The notes below the pieces were generated by a model that had not been told where the DNA came from, searched no databases, and saw nothing but the letters and a program-made list of their open reading frames with translations. Shown in pieces: positions 161 through 9,778 of a stretch of 64,000 nucleotides of DNA (position 1 is the stretch's first letter; the number at the start of each line of letters is the position of its first letter). Source of the stretch: an uncultured Spirochaetales bacterium (lineage in GTDB: Bacteria > Spirochaetota > Spirochaetia > Sphaerochaetales > Sphaerochaetaceae). A program made the position numbers and the translations under genes. Where the stretch lies: assembly GCA_949282255.1 (NCBI GenBank), contig CASDPA010000005.1, forward strand, positions 1-64,000. Reading direction: 5' to 3'.

Positions 161-751
161 TTAATTAAAAAGCATGATAGTTCCATTTTCATCAATATAT
201 TCTTTTATTTTTTCAAAATCAGACATGGTATTGCAGTTAGAAAACAAAATATCATCACCATCATATCTATATGTAATGTAATCAACTTTGGAAAACAAGT
301 TTTTTACCGAGTAATTATCGGATAATAATATTCCCTTTATTGCATGGAGTGTTGCTTTATTATAAACCCCTATCAGCGGCTCAATCCTATTTCCATGCAA
401 AGCCAAAGTAACTAACGGCCTGCTTCTTGCATGCAAAGAAACAAGCTCCGACAGAAGTCCTGTCGGAATCAAAGGTGTATCAACGCTGACAACAAGACAA
501 TCATCATAAACAGCATTTAACAAAGCAGAATATATTCCACTTAAAGGCCCTTTTCCATGGTACACATCATTTACCATTTTTATTTCATTATCTGAAACAG
601 CATGACCGCTGACCATGATATCGCTGATATGCATATGCCTCAATTTCATTACCTGAAAATCAAGCATAGTCATACCAGCGATGCAAAGGGAAGCTTTATC
701 TGTTCCCATTCTTAAACTTTTTCCGCCCGAAAGTACAACAGCAGAAAGCAT
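161..751 (-). CDS. mobA: Molybdenum cofactor guanylyltransferase MobA
   Basis: MobA joins GMP to molybdopterin to make the guanine dinucleotide cofactor (MGD) used by DMSO-reductase-family enzymes. The 196-aa protein opens with the nucleotide-binding motif LSGGKSLRMGTDKA (residues 7-20), and a VDTPL motif follows near the middle. The ATG at 751 is preferred because GAGGA lies 8 nt upstream; a TTG 15 nt earlier has no such site. It is the last gene of a catabolic operon, 37 bp after an RraA-like gene. No other cofactor-synthesis gene is nearby, so its likely client is the molybdopterin oxidoreductase encoded divergently at 7.7-9.8 kb. This pairing is an inference from position. Confidence 0.9.
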   Translation of the reverse strand: MLSAVVLSGGKSLRMGTDKASLCIAGMTMLDFQVMKLRHMHISDIMVSGHAVSDNEIKMVNDVYHGKGPLSGIYSALLNAVYDDCLVVSVDTPLIPTGLLSELVSLHARSRPLVTLALHGNRIEPLIGVYNKATLHAIKGILLSDNYSVKNLFSKVDYITYRYDGDDILFSNCNTMSDFEKIKEYIDENGTIMLFN

Positions 752-788
752 TTGTCTCGTCCTCAATTAATTTTGAAAGTAATGTTTT

Positions 789-1490
789 TTACTTTCTTCC
801 AAGCATATCCAATACCCAATCAGGAGCAAGCTGCGGCAAAGGCATTCCTAAGTCTTTGGCCTTACGATAATCAAGAATAGTACCCTCTCTCTTTTTCTCG
901 TACTTGAGTTTTTCTTCTGCTTTATCCAAAACAATTTCAATATGTTTTCTTGGAATAACGCAAACTCCATCAGAATCGCCTACCACCAAATCTCCCGGAT
1001 TAACTTCAACTCCTGCACACATGATTGCAACATTGATATTTCCTATATTTTTTTTAATTGGTCCTCTTGGCATGAATCCTCGGCTATATACGGGGAACCC
1101 CAAATCTATATTTCCATCCCTATCTCTCGTGTATCCATCTACAACCATTCCTTCAAAGCCGGCTGCTTGGCAAGCGCCCATTATCAAATCACCAAAATAG
1201 GCACGCTCTGAAAAGCCTTTTCCATCGATAACCATGACATATCCGGTTCCTGGCTGACAGTAGCTGGCAACATGAATCGGGAAATTATCTCCATCGCCCG
1301 TTTCTACGGTAAGAGCAGTTCCAATGACCTTCATACCCCGTTCAACAGGATTAATGCAAGCATCCATACATCCATCATTAGGTATTTTGATTCCTGCAGA
1401 TTTTACCCCATCAAGAAGTAACGGAACGTTGAGGCTCTTACATCTGTCAATGATGCTCTTATCCAAAAGAGGTGCATTTTCATTTATCAT
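789..1490 (-). CDS. RraA-type HMG/CHA aldolase family protein
   Basis: The 233-aa protein belongs to the RraA-like fold that includes 4-hydroxy-4-methyl-2-oxoglutarate and 4-carboxy-4-hydroxy-2-oxoadipate (CHA) aldolases, which release pyruvate. Visible signatures are the GDL...A...G segment at about residues 100-115 and DGYTRD (118-123), with Arg122 and Asp123 in the positions used for substrate carboxylate and metal binding in the family. A Shine-Dalgarno AGGAG precedes the ATG. In this operon it sits with a PIG-L-fold protein of the oxalomesaconate hydratase type, which fits a role as the final C-C cleaving step. A non-catalytic RraA role (RNase E inhibitor) is unlikely in this setting. 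Confidence 0.75.
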   Translation of the reverse strand: MINENAPLLDKSIIDRCKSLNVPLLLDGVKSAGIKIPNDGCMDACINPVERGMKVIGTALTVETGDGDNFPIHVASYCQPGTGYVMVIDGKGFSERAYFGDLIMGACQAAGFEGMVVDGYTRDRDGNIDLGFPVYSRGFMPRGPIKKNIGNINVAIMCAGVEVNPGDLVVGDSDGVCVIPRKHIEIVLDKAEEKLKYEKKREGTILDYRKAKDLGMPLPQLAPDWVLDMLGRK

Positions 1491-1499
1491 AATTCACTC

Positions 1500-2291
1500 C
1501 TATCGTTTTACCATAGGCTTATATAAACCGCGTGTATTCAATCTCAAAGCTGCCAATCGTTTTAAAGAATCCTTATTGCTCATATGTCTGGACAAATCAA
1601 ATTTCTCCTCATGGACCAGATCATCAAGAGGAATTCTATATCCTCCAGGCGGCAGAGGCTTTTCAGGATAGCCTATAGGAATCAGCGTATGGATAATTAA
1701 AGGCTCCGGAATATCAAGAATCTCTTTAAATGGCGCTTGAGTATGGATGCTCATCCACTGGGATGTTAAGCCTAAAGACTGTGCAGCCAGATGAATGAGC
1801 AAAGAAGTATTTGAAAGGCTGTCAGTAAGGTGTGTTTGGTCCAAACCCATAGTATGCCCTCCTAAAACAGTTCCCCACTGCTTACGGCCATCGCCTACAA
1901 TTGCAATTACCACAGGCGCATCTCTCCATAAATGCCGAGTCTGTTTTATTCGTAACCCCTCATCTGGATCATCGCATTCAACAGAATATCCCCCATGCCT
2001 ATATTCTGGAGAACGCATCTGTTCCATCCACCACATGAGATCCATGTCAATTTGACAGTATGCCGTAAATAGTTTCTCCCTGATTTGTGCATCACGTATG
2101 ACTATGTAAGTCCAAGGCTGCGAATTCGCTCCTGAGGGCGCCCAGCGAGCAACCTCCAGGATTTTTCTTACTTGTTCATCTGATACAGGCTTATCACTGA
2201 AATTACGACAGGTACGCCGATGCTGAGCAATATCAAGGAGCACATCGTATTTTTCGTTTGAATGATCTTCCATTTCTATATCCCAGCTCAT
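1500..2291 (-). CDS. Nitroreductase-family FMN oxidoreductase
   Basis: A 263-aa protein of the FMN-dependent nitroreductase fold. The family N-terminal pattern RRTCRNF (about residues 26-32) binds the FMN phosphate, and APSGANSQPW (about 52-61) is the classical flavin-contact motif. It starts inside the stop of the upstream tctC gene (ATGA overlap at 2288-2291), so translation is probably coupled. Members reduce nitroaromatics, enones and quinones with NAD(P)H. Within this operon a reductive step on an unsaturated or aromatic acid is plausible, but the substrate cannot be read from sequence. Confidence 0.8.
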   Translation of the reverse strand: MSWDIEMEDHSNEKYDVLLDIAQHRRTCRNFSDKPVSDEQVRKILEVARWAPSGANSQPWTYIVIRDAQIREKLFTAYCQIDMDLMWWMEQMRSPEYRHGGYSVECDDPDEGLRIKQTRHLWRDAPVVIAIVGDGRKQWGTVLGGHTMGLDQTHLTDSLSNTSLLIHLAAQSLGLTSQWMSIHTQAPFKEILDIPEPLIIHTLIPIGYPEKPLPPGGYRIPLDDLVHEEKFDLSRHMSNKDSLKRLAALRLNTRGLYKPMVKR

Positions 2292-3235
2292 AAGAATTCG
2301 ATAAACTGCATCGCCGTATCATAATATTCTTCGTCGGCTTTTTTGTAATCATCGCCAAATAGCAGGTCTATGCTTACGCCAGACGATTCAGCAAACTCAA
2401 GGAAACCAGGATCAGATAATGCTTTTTTAAAACCATCTATCAGTTTCAGTACGATCTCATCGGGAGTATCTTTAGGTGCGACAATGCCTCTTCGCATAGC
2501 CATAAACGGGAAGGAATATCCTTCTTCTACAATGGTAGGAACATCAGGAAGGAATCCAATTCTTTCATCTGCCAGCACACACAAAACTTTGACCTCATCA
2601 TTGTTAACCGCTGAATCATAAGCAGCTACAGAAAAAGTCACATCTCCATTCATGACCGCAAGAGTGCATGGACTGGTGCCATTATAAGGAACCTCGTTAT
2701 AATCGATTCCCAAGGCATTAGCCATAATCCTGCTTTGCAAATACATTGCTCCACCTATGCCAGAATTAGAATTTGAAGCTTTATTGGTTTTGCAGTATTC
2801 AATCAAATCATCAATATCATTCAAAGGTGAATCGGCTTTCACCAATACCGCATAAGGAGTAATATCAAAAGATACGATATGCTTCATATCCTTTATGCTG
2901 TAATCACATTCTTTTGATATTTGGGTCACTGTCGTCAAAGGCGAGGAATGCGCCAACAATGTATACCCATCCGGATCGGCCTTCCATACATAATCGCACG
3001 CCAGCTTTCCGCCAGATCCGGCCTTGTTCTCCACAACAATAGAAGTACCTAATTCCTTTTGGAGCAACGGCTGCAATTCTCTAACGAATATATCAGGTCC
3101 CGAACCTGCTTCAGATTGGCCGATAATATGGATTGGCTGGTTTGGCCATTTGGATAAATCCTCGTTAGCTCCATTAGCAAACAAACTAATAACGCTTACA
3201 AACAAAACAAATAAAACAGCAAAAATTTTTTTCAT
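2288..3235 (-). CDS. tctC: TctC/Bug-type periplasmic substrate-binding protein
   Basis: A 315-aa extracytoplasmic receptor of the tripartite tricarboxylate transporter. A cleavable signal peptide (residues 1 to about 21) ends in the spirochaete-style LFANGANE, without a lipobox cysteine. The mature part begins WPNQPIHII and carries the Bug-family blocks GGKLACDYVWKADPDGYT and NGDVTFSVAAYDS. It overlaps both neighbours by ATGA junctions (tctA upstream at 3232-3235, nitroreductase downstream at 2288-2291). AGGAGG lies upstream of the ATG. Bug proteins bind carboxylic acids; the ligand here is probably the carboxylate degraded by the operon enzymes. Confidence 0.9.
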   Translation of the reverse strand: MKKIFAVLFVLFVSVISLFANGANEDLSKWPNQPIHIIGQSEAGSGPDIFVRELQPLLQKELGTSIVVENKAGSGGKLACDYVWKADPDGYTLLAHSSPLTTVTQISKECDYSIKDMKHIVSFDITPYAVLVKADSPLNDIDDLIEYCKTNKASNSNSGIGGAMYLQSRIMANALGIDYNEVPYNGTSPCTLAVMNGDVTFSVAAYDSAVNNDEVKVLCVLADERIGFLPDVPTIVEEGYSFPFMAMRRGIVAPKDTPDEIVLKLIDGFKKALSDPGFLEFAESSGVSIDLLFGDDYKKADEEYYDTAMQFIEFL

Positions 3236-4746
3236 TTCAGTCCTCCTTTTTCTGCATTATTTTCTGTTTTCGTTTTTTTGCACTTTGTGATCATTCTCTT
3301 TATATATGGATAGGCAATGACAAAGACCAGGAGAATTGCAAGAGCTGCAGTAATAGGCCTATTCCATATAAAAGAAAAATTACCATATATAATTAACGAT
3401 CTTCCAAGATTCGTTTCGGCCGTAGGCCCTAAAATCAGCCCAAGGACAAAACACACCATAGGATACCGAGCCTTCTTCATATAATATCCAAGTACGCCAA
3501 AGAAGACTGTTAAGATGACATCAAACAAATATCCTCTTATGCTGTAGGCACCTAACGAACATAGAATTACTATGGATGGAACCAATATCTGATAAGGCAC
3601 CACTGTTACTTTTGCAAAGAAACGTAAAAGAGGCAACCCAATTATCACTATTGCAATACAAGTCCATACAAGCCCCCAGAAGAAAGTATAGAGAACAGAG
3701 CCGGAATCCAAAAACAATCTTGGGCCAGGCACGATGTTATGAATCATCAGCAACCCCATTAAGACAGCAGCTGTCGGGCTGCCAGGTATACCAAATGCCA
3801 ATGTAGGTATAATTGCACTGCCGATTGTTCCATTATTGGCAGCTTCAGGAGCAATAACACCTTTTATATTACCGGTTCCAAATGTCTCCTTATCAGGTTC
3901 TGTTGTCTGCGTCGTCGTATATGCCAGCATGCTTGCGGCGCTACCACCCGCTCCGGGGGTAACCCCTAGCAAAACTCCCAGTAAAGAGGAACGTAAAGTT
4001 ATTTTCCAATACTTGAAACAAGCCAGGACACCATCAGACATTTTGCCGCTCAGTCTGGTATCACCAAAAATAGATTTTGCTTCTTCTGCTAAAATAATCG
4101 CTTGGGACAATCCGAAAATACCTACAGCGATTGTCATAAAATCTATTCCATCATCCAGATAAGAAATACCAAACGTAAAACGGTCATACCCGGTTAATGC
4201 ATCTCCGCCTATTGTTGCCAGCAATAATCCGAAAAAGCCGATCAACAAACCTTTGGAAAGTGATTCATGGGAAGAAGCGGCTATTATTCCTAGACCAACC
4301 ATAGCCATCATAAATTGTTCTGGAGCTCCGAAATATAAAATAATTTTTGACATGAGGGGCGTTAAGAACATCAGTGCAATACAAGAAAAGAATCCGCCTA
4401 TTGCAGAAGCTGTTAAAGAAGCCCCCAAAGCCTCTCGGCTATGCCCCTTTTTTGACATCGGAAAGCCATCGAAGCATGTCGCAGTATTGGTAGGCGTGCC
4501 TGGAATTCCCAACAAAACTGAAGTTATGGAACCACCATACATCGCACCTTGATATATTCCAGCGGCCAATAAAAGCGCATGTATAGCATCCATCCCATAT
4601 GTCAAGGGAATCAATAAGGCAATACCTGTAGTCGGTCCCAGTCCAGGAAGTGCACCAATGATGATTCCGGCAAAAGTTCCAATAAACATGTACAAAAGAT
4701 TAATCGGAGTTATTGAAGATAATAACCCACCTAATATTTCGGCCAT
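3232..4746 (-). CDS. tctA: TctA large membrane subunit of a tripartite tricarboxylate transporter
   Basis: A 504-aa polytopic protein with about 11-12 predicted membrane segments, the full length of the TctA family. The signature GALPGLGPTTGIALLIP appears near residue 33, and the second repeat carries LLGVTPGAGGSAA. TctA forms the ion-driven channel that accepts substrate from TctC. The gene follows tctB by 10 nt with AGGAGGTGAG before the ATG, and its stop overlaps the tctC start. The order tctB-tctA-tctC is unbroken, so the importer looks functional. Confidence 0.93.
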   Translation of the reverse strand: MAEILGGLLSSITPINLLYMFIGTFAGIIIGALPGLGPTTGIALLIPLTYGMDAIHALLLAAGIYQGAMYGGSITSVLLGIPGTPTNTATCFDGFPMSKKGHSREALGASLTASAIGGFFSCIALMFLTPLMSKIILYFGAPEQFMMAMVGLGIIAASSHESLSKGLLIGFFGLLLATIGGDALTGYDRFTFGISYLDDGIDFMTIAVGIFGLSQAIILAEEAKSIFGDTRLSGKMSDGVLACFKYWKITLRSSLLGVLLGVTPGAGGSAASMLAYTTTQTTEPDKETFGTGNIKGVIAPEAANNGTIGSAIIPTLAFGIPGSPTAAVLMGLLMIHNIVPGPRLFLDSGSVLYTFFWGLVWTCIAIVIIGLPLLRFFAKVTVVPYQILVPSIVILCSLGAYSIRGYLFDVILTVFFGVLGYYMKKARYPMVCFVLGLILGPTAETNLGRSLIIYGNFSFIWNRPITAALAILLVFVIAYPYIKRMITKCKKTKTENNAEKGGLK

Positions 4747-4756
4747 AACTCACCTC

Positions 4757-5224
4757 CTAGAAAAAAAGATTGAAAAGCATCCCCTTGGGCAGAAAAATGT
4801 AAAGAATTTTATTGAAAACAAAATATATGGCGATTATTGCTATTCCAGCACCAATATTTATCAAAACAGGTTTCTGTATTTTAAAAAGCACAGTAAAACA
4901 AATAGTCAGCGCTATTGAAGAAAACATGAACCCAAACAGCCACATAAGAATTACATATGCAATCAACATCCCAGCAACAAGGAAAAAGTTCTTTCTATTG
5001 TGATAAATGCTTTCTGTTTTCTCCTTTTTCTTTTGTCCTGCCAATGATTTCACTATTTCAATCATCGCCATGGCAAAAACCACAAGACAACAGACCAATG
5101 GATATTGAATCGCATCCCAAGAAAGCTTATGGATGAACATGCCATCAGTAATGATGGCTCCAGAAATAATCATCATCACAAAGGACATGATAGCTTCAAA
5201 AGGAATATGTCTTTTCTTTTCCAT
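4757..5224 (-). CDS. tctB: TctB small membrane subunit
   Basis: A 155-aa protein with four predicted hydrophobic segments, matching the small subunit of tripartite tricarboxylate transporters. The ATG at 5224 is chosen because AGGAG lies just upstream; a TTG at 5242 would overlap the preceding gene. TctB sequences are poorly conserved, and the assignment leans on size, topology and its place directly before tctA. A lysine/glutamate-rich loop (about residues 48-62) lies between the second and third segments. Confidence 0.85.
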   Translation of the reverse strand: MEKKRHIPFEAIMSFVMMIISGAIITDGMFIHKLSWDAIQYPLVCCLVVFAMAMIEIVKSLAGQKKKEKTESIYHNRKNFFLVAGMLIAYVILMWLFGFMFSSIALTICFTVLFKIQKPVLINIGAGIAIIAIYFVFNKILYIFLPKGMLFNLFF

Positions 5225-5238
5225 AATGCTCCTCTCGT

Positions 5239-5967
5239 TCAAAGTAATTCAGATGCAACTACAGGAAATACACGTGAAAAACTTTCTGCATATTTATAAT
5301 TCTGGCAGCCGGAAAGCCGTCTTGCATGATTCCCTCTCATAAAAGCTCTTTGGGTATAATACTCGATCAAATGAGATTGGGCCTTAAAGCATTTCATGGC
5401 AGCAACCTTTTTATCATAGACATCGGTTATATCGACGAATTGCCCAGGAACATAATGAGACAGTTCTGTTTGGTGCGGTTCGAAACCAAATATTTGCATC
5501 TGTTTTGTTGTTCTGGTCCCTTCGATACAGACCCCATTGGAATTTGAGATAACGCTGCATCTGAAAACAAAGTCACAAACTGCATTATGATCAGGATTCA
5601 GCACATCATATTTATCATGAGTGATTATGTAATCAGGAGCAAAATCCCTGATTTTTTTTACCATGCGTTCTTCCATCATGCGGTCTATGACCAATGGATA
5701 GTCATCATAATCCCAAAACTCAATATCCTTTAATTGCAAAATATCCGCAGCAGCCAAAGTCTCTTCTTTTCTTATTGATTTAACCTTATCCGCCGTAGCG
5801 CCGGCTTGCTTCCATAAATCATTAGACTCCCCACGGACACCAAAAGTCAGCACAACAACACAAACCTCAGCTCCACCCTGGATATACTTGGCAATTGTGC
5901 CGCCGCTTCTCCAGACATAATCTGCTGCATGAGCAGAGACCACAAGCAATTTTTTTCCAGCAATCAT
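5239..5967 (-). CDS. PIG-L/LmbE-fold protein, 4-oxalomesaconate hydratase-like
   Basis: A 242-aa protein of the PIG-L (LmbE) fold. Deacetylases of this fold carry AHPDD, with the first Asp as general base. Here the motif is SAHAADYVWRSGG (residues 11-23), so the base is Ala while His13 and Asp16 remain for metal. From family knowledge, GalB-type 4-oxalomesaconate hydratases share this AH.AD.VWR pattern. A later metal histidine is suggested by NPDHNAV. The ATG at 5967 has GGAGG 6 nt upstream; a GTG lies one codon earlier. The neighbouring RraA-type aldolase would take the hydratase product, supporting a hydratase over a sugar deacetylase. Confidence 0.7.
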   Translation of the reverse strand: MIAGKKLLVVSAHAADYVWRSGGTIAKYIQGGAEVCVVVLTFGVRGESNDLWKQAGATADKVKSIRKEETLAAADILQLKDIEFWDYDDYPLVIDRMMEERMVKKIRDFAPDYIITHDKYDVLNPDHNAVCDFVFRCSVISNSNGVCIEGTRTTKQMQIFGFEPHQTELSHYVPGQFVDITDVYDKKVAAMKCFKAQSHLIEYYTQRAFMRGNHARRLSGCQNYKYAESFSRVFPVVASELL

Positions 5968-5983
5968 CACTATCCTCCAATTA

Positions 5984-6868
5984 CTATTTTTTCAGCAACC
6001 AACGCGGATTAACGTTTACCATCTTATGTATCTCAATATCAGAAAAACCGTTCAGCTTGAGATCTTCACAATACTTCTGCAATCCCTCATCAGGGTACAA
6101 CGCATTCTTTTGGCCAAGATCTGTTGAAAGTACAATATGATCTGCACCTATTGCTTTTATTTGTTCTATTTCATTGCTAAGACATGACTTACCTGTTGCG
6201 TAGGTTGTGTAGCAGTGTTCCATGAATGCGCCAAAAGACACAAGTTTTTTCTGCTCTTCGATAGTGTAATATGTATTAGGAAATGTCACATGTGTGATTA
6301 TGATCCTTTTTACACCGCGATTTGCAGCTGCCTCCACCAAAGCAAAGGTTTCTTGATGCGATATATGGCTAGTGGCCAGAATAATATCGTATTTTGCAAT
6401 GATATCTAAAATCTGGAGGACACTCTGCTTTAATTCTCCATTTTTTTCCAAAAGGGAAATTGAAGGATTGATAATCCCATCTTCGCGCAATTGCATAACT
6501 ATTTTTGCCCAGTATGGCAGAATTTTGCATTTATCGCTAAAAACATATGTTCTTTCATTTTCACTGTCGCAAGTAGGAAACCATACAAGCTTTATTCCGG
6601 ATCTGCATGCCATTTCTAGCGCAGAAGGATTCATGCCTCCTACCGAGCTATTTAAAGTGATTGTACCTATGGCATCGCATTCTGGAAACATTTTATTAAT
6701 CAATTGAGCTCTTTCTGAAGTACAGAAGTAATGGGATTTTATTGCGTATCCAGCCATTTTGCTTTTTATAATCCGCTGTGCCATTTCAATATCATCCATC
6801 CTACGTTCCAAAACATCAGGGGCAGAATGGACATGCAAATCATAAGCTCCTTCAATATAGTTTTTCAT
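5984..6868 (-). CDS. DUF6282 amidohydrolase-like TIM-barrel protein
   Basis: First gene of the operon, 294 aa. The N-terminus carries DLHVHSAPDVL (residues 10-20) with the HxH metal pair typical of amidohydrolase and PHP barrels; further candidate ligands are SHISHQE and THVTFPNT in the second half and STDLGQ near the C-terminus. The pattern matches proteins annotated as DUF6282, whose reaction is unknown. Its place ahead of an oxalomesaconate-hydratase-like gene suggests a lactone or amide hydrolysis feeding that step, comparable to LigI acting before LigJ and LigK in other bacteria. That parallel is inference. GGAGAGG precedes the ATG. Confidence 0.7.
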   Translation of the reverse strand: MKNYIEGAYDLHVHSAPDVLERRMDDIEMAQRIIKSKMAGYAIKSHYFCTSERAQLINKMFPECDAIGTITLNSSVGGMNPSALEMACRSGIKLVWFPTCDSENERTYVFSDKCKILPYWAKIVMQLREDGIINPSISLLEKNGELKQSVLQILDIIAKYDIILATSHISHQETFALVEAAANRGVKRIIITHVTFPNTYYTIEEQKKLVSFGAFMEHCYTTYATGKSCLSNEIEQIKAIGADHIVLSTDLGQKNALYPDEGLQKYCEDLKLNGFSDIEIHKMVNVNPRWLLKK

Positions 6869-6902
6869 AGCACCTCTCCTAAACCAAAAGGATATTGTTT
6901 CT

Positions 6903-6923
6903 CAAAATTGTTCAACAATCTTG
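6903..6923. promoter_or_regulatory. 21-bp palindromic operator, likely GntR site
   Basis: An inverted repeat centred on C6913: arms CAAxATTGTT and AACAATxTTG match at 9 of 10 positions. The core TTGTTCAACAA fits the TNGTNNNACNA pattern of FadR/FCD-type GntR operators. It begins 7 bp downstream of the minus-strand -10 box, where a bound repressor would block initiation of the catabolic operon, and lies 152 bp before the divergent gntR start. Confidence 0.65.
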
Positions 6924-6929
6924 ATTTGC

Positions 6930-6957
6930 ATTTTAATACGAAAATAGCATATGTCAA
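6930..6957 (-). promoter_or_regulatory. Promoter of the catabolic operon
   Basis: TTGACA (6957-6952), a 16-nt spacer, then TAAAAT (6935-6930), reading toward the DUF6282 gene at 6868. The palindromic operator overlaps the expected transcription start. Confidence 0.6.
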
Positions 6958-7075
6958 GTTTTTTTTGAAGTCTCCTCTGTTTTTTCCCTTGACATCAAAA
7001 AGAAAGAGAATAAAAGTATTATATATGAATATTAGAATTGTTTAGCAAAATATCTCTACAATAATTGAGGAATAT

Positions 7076-7723
7076 ATGAAAGAAAACACTAAAAGTGACA
7101 AAATTTATGAAGACCTGAAAAACGAGATTATCAGAGGTGACTACCCCCCAGCTTTTGCTCTTACCGAAACTGAGCTCGCACGCAGATTTAACGTGACAAG
7201 AAACACGATAAAGAAAATATTGTTCATGTTGGAAGCTGACGGCCTTGTCACAATGGAAAATAATAAAAGCGCAAAAATAAAGACCTATTCAATTGAAGAA
7301 GTTTTAGAATTCCTTGAAGTGAGAGAAGAACTGGAAAGTTTCATCATCCGTAACGCAATCAGAAACATCAAAGGCGAACAAATTGAAGAATTGTCTCAGC
7401 TTCTTGACAAAATGAAAAAGCTGAAAGAGGAAAAAAATCTTATTGAATACAGCAATTGTAACAGATTATTTCATGATGTTATTTATAAAGCATGCAGCAA
7501 TAAGACAGCAGTAGATTTGACAATGCATCTCAAAAATCAAATGAAAAAATATAATGGAAAAACCATACTTGCTCCAGGTAGAGATGAAGCATCTTTAACA
7601 GAACACACGAAAATTCTTGAAGCAATTAAAAACAAAGATGAAAAAACAGCAGAATTATATATGCGCATACACATACGTAATGTTGCCAATACCTTTCAAA
7701 CTTACTACACATTGCTTTTTTAA
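7076..7723 (+). CDS. GntR-family regulator with FCD-type C-terminus
   Basis: A 215-aa repressor-type protein. Residues 1-70 form the winged helix (ETELARRFNVTRNTIKKIL), followed by an all-helical ligand domain of FCD type containing the conserved FHDVIYKACSN segment and a later HTKILEAI. It is divergent from the catabolic operon and 18 nt upstream of the molybdoenzyme gene, with GAGG before its ATG. It most likely controls both transcription units through the palindrome at 6903-6923, in response to a carboxylate. Confidence 0.85.
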   Translation: MKENTKSDKIYEDLKNEIIRGDYPPAFALTETELARRFNVTRNTIKKILFMLEADGLVTMENNKSAKIKTYSIEEVLEFLEVREELESFIIRNAIRNIKGEQIEELSQLLDKMKKLKEEKNLIEYSNCNRLFHDVIYKACSNKTAVDLTMHLKNQMKKYNGKTILAPGRDEASLTEHTKILEAIKNKDEKTAELYMRIHIRNVANTFQTYYTLLF

Positions 7724-7741
7724 TGTTTTCAGGAGAGGGAC

Positions 7742-9778
7742 ATGCAATACATAAGATCAATATGTACATTATGCCACTGTGGGTGTGGAATTATTATCGG
7801 AGTGCAAGACAATAAAATGGTCAGCATACAGTCGGATATCGACCATCCTGCAAATAGAAATTATCTTTGCAAAAAAATAAAAGCCATTGAAGAGTTTTGC
7901 AAATCCAGCGACAGGCTGAAAAAACCATTAATCAGGACAAAACATGGATTAAAAGAATCATCATGGGAAAATGCTTATGATTTTGCTGCAGAAAAAATAT
8001 CCACCATTATGAATAAATTCGGAGCAGATTCCATCATGCGATGTTCAGGGGCCCCTGTAAGCTATAATGCAAGAGACGGCTTTTCTTTTTTCATGAAAGC
8101 AATTGGAACTGCAAATGCAACCGGATCATCAACATACTGCATGGTTCCCAGAGTCACAGCATTTTCAAATATTATAGGAGGAAAACCTGAACCGGATTTT
8201 GATAACTCCAATTATATAATCATGTGGGGAAGCAACCCAAAAGCAACCAATCGGATGGGAGGATATTGCGCATTTAATGGTATTCAAAACGTGCTTGACA
8301 GGGCAAGAAAGAGAAATTCAACTATAATTTTCATCGATCCTGTAAAATGCGAATCCATAAAAGAGAATGATTTTTGGGTCAAAATTAATCCTGGTTCAGA
8401 CATTTACCTCGCATTAGGCATGATCAGGGAAATCATTAACAACGAATTACATGATAAGGAATTCGTTTCAAACTATGCTGCAGGCTTTGAGCAATTGAAG
8501 GAGTATGTTCAGGAGTTTACGCCGGAGAAAGTCGAGGAGCAGACGGGTATCAATCAAGAAACAATAAAAACTATCGCAACAGATTTTGCAAAATCCGATA
8601 CAGCGCTGATTTGTGAAGGAAATGGGCTAGATATGTATTGTAATACAGTTTATACAGTCGAGGCTATTGCAACATTGTGTGCGATAACAGGGCGTATAGA
8701 TAGAAAAGGAGGCTTGGTATTTCTTCCTTTTGTTCCTCAGAAAACAATTAATGATTTGAATCCAGCCAGCATGAAACAAAAATATAAATATCCTCTGTTT
8801 CGGGATATCCCCTTCCCTGCTGTAAAAGAGAGTTTGCTAAACGAAGAAGAAGACCGCCCAAGAGCAATGATTGTACATCATGCAAATCCTGCATTAATCA
8901 ATTCAAATCGTGCAAGAACAGCAGAGGCTTTGAGGAAATTGGATTTTCTCCTTGTCAGTGATATCTTCTTAACAGCTACAGGAAATGAGGCCGATTTGGT
9001 CTTGCCGGAAACAATCTCTTTTGAAAGTTTTGGTTATAAAGCATATACCAGTTTCGATAAGCCTTTTGTAGCATTGCAACAACCTATTTTTACCCCGCCA
9101 GAAGGAATGAGATCGGTTTTTGTCAATGAGTTTGAAATTGCCAAAAGAATCGGGATTGCAGAAAAATATCCTTATCATGATGAGATATCTTGGATAAATT
9201 ATGCGCTTTCTCCAGCCGGAATCACTTTTGAAGACTTAAAAAGCAAGCATATAATATTTTTTGACAAACAAATAGTTTATGAAAAATATAAAACAGCCGG
9301 ATTCCGTACAAAAAGCGGGAAAGCGGAATTATATTCAACAAAAAAATCAGAAAATGGATATTGCCCAGTTCCGCAAGCCTATTCAGGCATACCAAATAAA
9401 GACGAAGATGCTGAAGAGTATCCTTTCATTGCAATAAACTATAGGCCTGGAACATTTGTACATACAAAATTACATAATATAAAAGCACTTACAAACGAAC
9501 ATGATTTTCCAAAGGCTTGGCTTAATGAGAAAATGATGCATAAATATAATCTTCTAGAAAAGACTCACATAATAGTCGAATCTAAAAACGGTTCTGTTGA
9601 ATTTGAAACAAATTTGAAAAAGGATCTCGATGACAACCAAATTATGATTGAATTCGGCTGGGGCAATCCAACTGATGGCAAACAGGATATCAATACTCTT
9701 ACGAACGATACCTTCTTCGATCCTATTTCAGGCACAACATCAAATAGATCATATCGAGTAAAAATAACAAAGGCATAA
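7742..9778 (+). CDS. Molybdopterin oxidoreductase, DMSO reductase family
   Basis: A 678-aa catalytic subunit. The N-terminal [4Fe-4S] site is C8-x2-C11-x3-C15-x27-C43. Cys133 (in STYCMVPR) aligns by position with the Cys/SeCys that binds molybdenum in formate dehydrogenases. MWGSNPKATN (161-170) and GRIDRKGG are MGD-binding blocks, and the C-terminal dinucleotide-binding domain contains NYRPGTF. No signal peptide (no Tat twin-arginine) is seen, so it should be cytoplasmic. No electron-transfer partner is adjacent. It follows gntR closely (GGAGAGG before ATG) and the opposite operon ends in mobA. The substrate is unknown; formate, an aromatic or a hydroxylated acid are all possible. Confidence 0.85.
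   Translation: MQYIRSICTLCHCGCGIIIGVQDNKMVSIQSDIDHPANRNYLCKKIKAIEEFCKSSDRLKKPLIRTKHGLKESSWENAYDFAAEKISTIMNKFGADSIMRCSGAPVSYNARDGFSFFMKAIGTANATGSSTYCMVPRVTAFSNIIGGKPEPDFDNSNYIIMWGSNPKATNRMGGYCAFNGIQNVLDRARKRNSTIIFIDPVKCESIKENDFWVKINPGSDIYLALGMIREIINNELHDKEFVSNYAAGFEQLKEYVQEFTPEKVEEQTGINQETIKTIATDFAKSDTALICEGNGLDMYCNTVYTVEAIATLCAITGRIDRKGGLVFLPFVPQKTINDLNPASMKQKYKYPLFRDIPFPAVKESLLNEEEDRPRAMIVHHANPALINSNRARTAEALRKLDFLLVSDIFLTATGNEADLVLPETISFESFGYKAYTSFDKPFVALQQPIFTPPEGMRSVFVNEFEIAKRIGIAEKYPYHDEISWINYALSPAGITFEDLKSKHIIFFDKQIVYEKYKTAGFRTKSGKAELYSTKKSENGYCPVPQAYSGIPNKDEDAEEYPFIAINYRPGTFVHTKLHNIKALTNEHDFPKAWLNEKMMHKYNLLEKTHIIVESKNGSVEFETNLKKDLDDNQIMIEFGWGNPTDGKQDINTLTNDTFFDPISGTTSNRSYRVKITKA

Follow-up and report, generated by a model that had tools for sequence, protein, structure and literature searches.

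The lower half of the 4,5-cleavage pathway for gallate and protocatechuate, as described in Pseudomonas, Azospirillum, and others, pairs a GalB-clade hydratase with an RraA-fold pyruvate aldolase (GalC/LigK) and places an amidohydrolase-fold enzyme, LigI, before them. In aerobes, GalB adjoins a 4-carboxy-4-hydroxy-2-oxoadipate (CHA) aldolase and gallate or protocatechuate dioxygenase genes, and gallate clusters carry an oxalomesaconate tautomerase next to GalB. In Azospirillum and Nitratireductor, GalB, CHA aldolase, tautomerase, and protocatechuate-type dioxygenase genes are accompanied by an amidohydrolase. A match to 4d8l (E 8e-108) identifies the Azospirillum enzyme as LigI, and the Nitratireductor protein is 67% identical to it. 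Here we describe a ten-gene locus of an uncultured Spirochaetales bacterium, at positions 161-9778 of a 64,000-base stretch (the window) that begins at base 1 of contig C5 (114,282 bases), in which a GalB-like hydratase gene lies beside that of a DUF6282 enzyme and shares a strand with an RraA-family aldolase gene and the genes of the importer TctBAC. We hold with moderate confidence that this locus is a substrate-induced catabolic module that takes up 2-pyrone-4,6-dicarboxylate (PDC), or a lactone acid close to it, and yields pyruvate and oxaloacetate without net redox change. In contrast to the aerobic pathway, the locus has neither dioxygenase nor tautomerase, carries DUF6282 instead of LigI and an aldolase of another RraA clade, and belongs to a group with Tct or TRAP-TAXI uptake whose hosts are mostly gut-type anaerobes.

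A close counterpart of the locus is an aromatic island on the Thermus oshimai plasmid pTHEOS01, which encodes, in order, an extradiol dioxygenase, GntR, DUF6282, PIG-L (GalB), CHA aldolase, and a DUF1932 dehydrogenase; a 4-hydroxybenzoate hydroxylase gene is nearby, and TctCBA follows at a greater distance. Neither LigI nor a tautomerase is annotated within the 45 kb of the plasmid examined. The island thus shares with our locus the order GntR, DUF6282, GalB, aldolase and the presence of TctCBA; it differs in its hydroxylase and extradiol dioxygenases, in a GalB 45% identical to that of the window, and in that no palindrome of the kind described below was found. A DUF1932 dehydrogenase accompanies DUF6282, GalB, and aldolase both in Thermus (L037:11348-12115) and in a spirochaete (L025:16215-17099). 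Because the Thermus cluster holds DUF6282, whereas the LigI clusters of other aerobes hold LigI, we infer, by an argument from position, that DUF6282 may do LigI's job in Thermus and in the window.

Predicted hydratase, aldolase, and hydrolase

The best solved match of the PIG-L-fold protein is 4-oxalomesaconate hydratase 5cgz (E 3e-51), aligned over residues 6-241, nearly its whole length. Where deacetylases carry AHPDD, it has SAHAADYVWRSGG (SAHAADYVWR, of the SAH-x-ADFVWR type), in which the Asp-Asp pair is gone. In a tree of 28 proteins, several of the outgroups on long branches, the window protein, 5cgz, and annotated galB genes form one 23-row clade (support 97/97) with deacetylases outside it; the GalB proteins of the anaerobes make up their own sub-clade (97/98), and those of Thermus and spirochaete L025 share a branch inside the aerobic group. 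Plasmid-borne matches also fall into two groups, GalB-like proteins at 37-57% identity and deacetylases at 26-34%. On motif and tree position we reject an ordinary deacetylase, the outcome that would have undone the proposal of an initial annotation of this DNA that the protein is GalB-like; we predict a GalB-like hydratase converting 4-oxalomesaconate to 4-carboxy-4-hydroxy-2-oxoadipate.

For the RraA-family protein, the best solved match is the 4-hydroxy-4-methyl-2-oxoglutarate (HMG)/CHA aldolase 3noj (E 5e-31), whose residues N71, H75, R123, D124, and E199 (discussed in PMC5065237) align with N69, H73, R122, D123, and E198. The metal- and pyruvate-binding set D101-X20-R122-D123, N69, H73, and E198 is kept in full. 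The aldolase motif, D-X20-R-D, disfavors a degradosome regulator, and the protein is likely a pyruvate aldolase whose predicted substrate, 4-carboxy-4-hydroxy-2-oxoadipate or a close homolog, would be cleaved into pyruvate and oxaloacetate. The aldolase assignment of the initial annotation stands to this extent, with the pyruvate-aldolase residues retained; its affiliation with GalC/LigK does not, for reasons given below, and identity with GalC is not established. A second RraA-family protein with D-X20-R-D is encoded elsewhere in the same genome (contig C29, L001:1420-2094).

DUF6282 had no solved relative in phmmer and profile searches of the PDB, and LigI was not listed there. An AlphaFold2 model (pLDDT 90, pTM 0.90) matches amidohydrolase-superfamily barrels with Z of about 20, phosphotriesterase (PTE)-like lactonases and dipeptidases included; LigI is not among the structural matches listed, which does not exclude kinship. 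GalB-linked DUF6282 proteins form one side of a tree branch (support 78/92), and other DUF6282 proteins occur in clusters without GalB. The hydrolase-type fold of the model and the gene's place before PIG-L and the aldolase agree with the hydrolase originally suggested; we predict an amidohydrolase-fold enzyme acting as a PDC-type lactone hydrolase. A search of open-licence papers turned up no mention of DUF6282.

Conserved gene set and its control region

DUF6282 is followed by PIG-L in loci of Spirochaetaceae, Treponema, other spirochaetes, Hungatella, Lachnospiraceae, and a Dehalococcoidales bin. Where the contig extends, an importer and an RraA protein come next (L003, L004, L005, L009), L006 showing part of a more distant RraA protein, and a related GntR gene is the divergent neighbor of DUF6282 in L003-L005 and L008-L010. 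The kind of importer varies: the window and L003 have Tct, L004 and the same-genus L023 have TRAP-TAXI, and L025 has both. Genomes of the same genus or family (G381, G004, G402) combine DUF6282, TAXI-TRAP, PIG-L, GntR, RraA, and a TauE-type gene. Other genomes repeat the combination of GntR, DUF6282, PIG-L, RraA, and an importer, so the grouping is not chance, and the expectation that the genes of the locus would be conserved together was borne out for these members of the set, though not for the molybdoenzyme and MobA. Two loci depart in detail: in Hungatella, two related GntR genes stand in tandem upstream of DUF6282 (L004:8311-9700), and in Alicyclobacillus dauci the GntR and PIG-L genes are each in two pieces, perhaps frameshifted (L038:11163-13588).

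The set is sparsely spread. At E 1e-40, the PIG-L protein is found in five of 393 spirochaete-phylum genomes, our own included, one of them (G400) without DUF6282 nearby; DUF6282 occurs in six of the 139 genomes of the family, once as a distant copy without GalB (G019); and among 392 genomes of Hungatella's order, Hungatella is the sole carrier. Such a distribution would fit horizontal movement.

A 13-bp palindrome, ATTGTTNAACAAT, lies upstream of DUF6282 and is exact in 10 of the 14 core loci (the window, L003, L005, L008, L009, L010, L023, L024, L044, and Alicyclobacillus L038), with one mismatch in L004 and two in L006; it is not present upstream of DUF6282 in L025 or Thermus. The 2.35-Mb genome holds a single exact copy, 10 bases downstream of the predicted -10 of the DUF6282 operon. 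In the twelve loci bearing the site, a TTGACA -35 element (TTGACT in L003) and a -10-like hexamer lie just upstream, a match somewhat favored by the search, in which the script chose the best-matching hexamer pair near the site. Near matches of the palindrome, no commoner than chance would give, carry no weight in our argument. We take the palindrome as the predicted operator of the GntR-type protein, and the GntR/FCD protein is probably the repressor of the catabolic operon.

All ten open reading frames lie where the initial annotation placed them, and the Pfam families it named score over their cut-offs (Table 1). The eight minus-strand genes, in the order MobA-RraA-nitroreductase-TctC-TctA-TctB-PIG-L-DUF6282, overlap or are separated by at most 22 bases, the RraA/MobA gap being the largest; GntR and the molybdoenzyme form a plus-strand pair, 18 bases apart, divergent from them across a 207-base gap. 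The assembly stops beyond MobA. With TctA, TctB, and TctC all encoded, the tripartite tricarboxylate transporter is complete; by eye, a second Tct importer appears beside an oxidoreductase gene on contig C4 of the same genome (L058:1010-4141). No ring-cleavage dioxygenase is among the ten genes, the rest of the genome not having been searched for one.

Table 1. Genes and predicted control elements of the locus (window coordinates)
Feature	Position	Strand	Basis
MobA-like nucleotidyltransferase	161..766	-	Pfam NTP_transf_3, 93.9 bits; 22 bases after aldolase gene
RraA-family class II pyruvate aldolase (predicted)	789..1490	-	3noj match, residues
Nitroreductase-family flavoprotein	1500..2291	-	Pfam Nitroreductase, 87.7 bits
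TctC substrate-binding protein, tripartite tricarboxylate-type importer	2288..3235	-	Pfam TctC, 164 bits
TctA large membrane subunit	3232..4746	-	Pfam TctA, 465 bits
TctB small membrane subunit	4757..5242	-	Pfam TctB, 44.8 bits
GalB-like PIG-L-fold hydratase (predicted)	5239..5970	-	5cgz match, motif, tree
DUF6282 amidohydrolase-fold enzyme, predicted PDC-type lactone hydrolase	5984..6868	-	Pfam DUF6282, 222 bits
Palindrome ATTGTTCAACAAT, predicted operator of GntR-type regulator	6907..6919	.	Conservation across core loci
Predicted DUF6282-operon promoter	6930..6957	-	-35 TTGACA 6952-6957, -10 TAAAAT 6930-6935, spacing 16
GntR/FCD transcriptional regulator	7076..7723	+	Pfam FCD and GntR
Molybdopterin oxidoreductase, dimethyl sulfoxide (DMSO)-reductase superfamily	7742..9778	+	Pfam PF00384, PF04879, PF01568

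The molybdoenzyme and other probable additions

The initial annotation gave half of the pathway to the molybdoenzyme, served by a cofactor gene of its own, and this part of its proposal was not supported. The protein has three molybdopterin-oxidoreductase domains, no N-terminal signal-like extension, and is the sole PF00384 protein in the genome. No relative exceeds 32% identity in 393 spirochaete genomes, and none of the eight other genomes carrying the core has a close one; we reject it as a core part because it is not conserved. Across 344 Lachnospirales genomes, relatives reach only 29% identity; of four inspected by eye, three (L054, L056, L057) lie beside ferredoxin-like genes and two (L054, L056) beside gene runs of molybdenum cofactor (Moco) type. 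Acetylene hydratase 2e7z is its best solved match (E 5e-51), and domain layout and Fe-S motif are common to it, acetylene hydratase, and formate dehydrogenase. It is nonetheless unlikely to be either: the catalytic Asp13 of acetylene hydratase is replaced in the alignment by His12, and the His that follows the metal-binding residue of formate dehydrogenase is Met134 here, after metal-binding Cys133, with a score against the formate dehydrogenase alpha family of 265.6 bits versus a cut-off of 666.

The MobA-like protein scores under both NCBIfam MobA cut-offs (113.8 versus 164 and 86.7 versus 151.85 bits), is recognized by the general NTP-transferase domain, and is not encoded beside the core in the other loci examined. 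Neither MoaC nor MoeA/MogA turned up in the assembly, which is rated 96.75% complete and whose one PF00994 match is CinA rather than MoeA, so that cofactor synthesis is not evident; Moco-synthesis genes could lie beyond the contig end beside MobA. The nitroreductase, among the loci examined, is common only to the window and its nearest relative, L003 (82% identity).

Other molybdenum enzymes occur in the genus. In two same-genus genomes, a xanthine dehydrogenase (XDH)-like enzyme directly follows the TauE-type permease at the end of the core operon (L044:922-3570; L023:12985-13581, the latter cut by the contig end); both score under the cut-off for selenium-dependent XDH. A same-genus genome without the core (G006, L028:4695-14676) has in a row TRAP-TAXI, GntR, a DMSO-reductase-superfamily enzyme, a MobA-like gene, and an XDH-like large subunit. 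Molybdenum enzymes thus accompany such clusters in the genus, and none is constant. The molybdoenzyme, MobA, and the nitroreductase look like lineage-specific additions, which may feed further substrates in.

Proposed route and its alternatives

In the pathway that we favor, TctBAC would import a small di- or tricarboxylic acid, DUF6282 would open it hydrolytically, most likely PDC or a close lactone acid yielding 4-oxalomesaconate, and the GalB-like protein would hydrate this to 4-carboxy-4-hydroxy-2-oxoadipate, from which the RraA-family aldolase would release pyruvate and oxaloacetate. The GntR-type protein would repress the operon through the palindrome at its promoter, and the substrate or an intermediate would free it. 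An imported compound that is already a pyrone or has an opened ring would call for no oxygen and no molybdenum; being redox-neutral and independent of both, the route would suit a fermenter that takes up ring-cleavage products made elsewhere. The substrate, the order and direction of the steps, and repression are what we infer here.

Several observations weigh against this pathway. The enzyme functions are predictions drawn from sequence and model; what computation shows is the gene content, the place of the PIG-L protein in the GalB clade, the residues of the aldolase, the fold of DUF6282, and the conservation of the set and the palindrome. Sequence comparison detects no similarity between DUF6282 and LigI (hhalign probability 0.5%, from shallow profiles), so that a LigI homolog has no sequence support, and the DUF6282 proteins of Thermus and the window share only 37% identity. 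The aldolase tree puts the window protein in its own 8-row clade (99/97) and GalC/LigK in another (95/96), on which ground we reject membership in the latter; the Thermus aldolase falls on the GalC/LigK side, and the window protein scores under both CHA-aldolase cut-offs (141.9 versus 179 and 131.2 versus 304.5 bits). The locus has no oxalomesaconate tautomerase, whereas the LigI clusters examined carry one. Sharing of the palindrome does not identify the protein that binds it. Finally, our search of open-licence papers did not find PDC as a nutrient in anoxic guts and gave nothing useful on anaerobic use of PDC or oxalomesaconate.

An alternative scheme keeps the last two steps and changes the first: DUF6282 would act on an open-chain acid, as a tautomerase or an amide or ester hydrolase, or on a lactone other than PDC, and another polycarboxylic acid would be imported. 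Thermus and the window have no annotated tautomerase next to GalB, so DUF6282 could stand in for it, and both its dissimilarity to LigI and the existence of DUF6282 clusters without GalB are in keeping with this; yet the fold is of hydrolase type, and the Thermus hydroxybenzoate hydroxylase fits a protocatechuate/PDC route, leaving a changed first step as a lesser possibility. The GalB-like and RraA-like enzymes could also act outside the oxalomesaconate route, on a homologous 2-oxo-enoate acid that is hydrated and then split by a pyruvate aldolase, which would make this a different aldol pathway. Although the set could have shifted substrate together, given the anaerobes' separate GalB sub-clade and an aldolase outside GalC/LigK, neither the catalytic residues nor the pairing of hydratase with aldolase has been lost, and the GalB proteins of Thermus and spirochaete L025 branch together among the aerobic ones; we regard such a shift as unlikely.

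We find it quite improbable that the molybdoenzyme, given its cofactor by MobA, acts without oxygen on an aromatic, pyrone, or similar acid to make the substrate of DUF6282. Short gaps separate the molybdoenzyme gene from GntR (18 bases) and MobA from RraA (22 bases), so that both may share the control region, the molybdoenzyme is the genome's only PF00384 protein, and an XDH-like enzyme follows the core after the TauE gene in two same-genus species; the lack of close relatives among core genomes and across the phylum and the failure to find MoaC and MoeA/MogA argue the other way. A broader version, in which different species within a single genus of gut spirochaetes have coupled molybdenum enzymes from two superfamilies to a common hydrolase-hydratase-aldolase core, converting ring compounds such as pyridine or pyrone dicarboxylates via oxalomesaconate to pyruvate and oxaloacetate without oxygen, is a long shot. 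Of the original idea, then, the oxalomesaconate half is supported and the molybdenum half is not. It is very improbable that ordinary deacetylase and RNA-regulator genes merely sit beside an importer with no joint pathway: automatic annotation does label the relatives PIG-L deacetylase and RraA family, but the GalB clade, the lost Asp-Asp pair, the aldolase motif, and the conserved set with its palindrome speak against it.

Should the uptake and breakdown of PDC or a close lactone acid be confirmed, gut anaerobes would be using the final half of a pathway considered aerobic to ferment what others leave behind, whether ring-cleavage products or lactone acids, and the breakdown of lignin and tannin at oxic margins would be linked to anoxic fermenters. 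Part of the DUF6282 family would gain a candidate function, and the operator sequence could be used to find more members.

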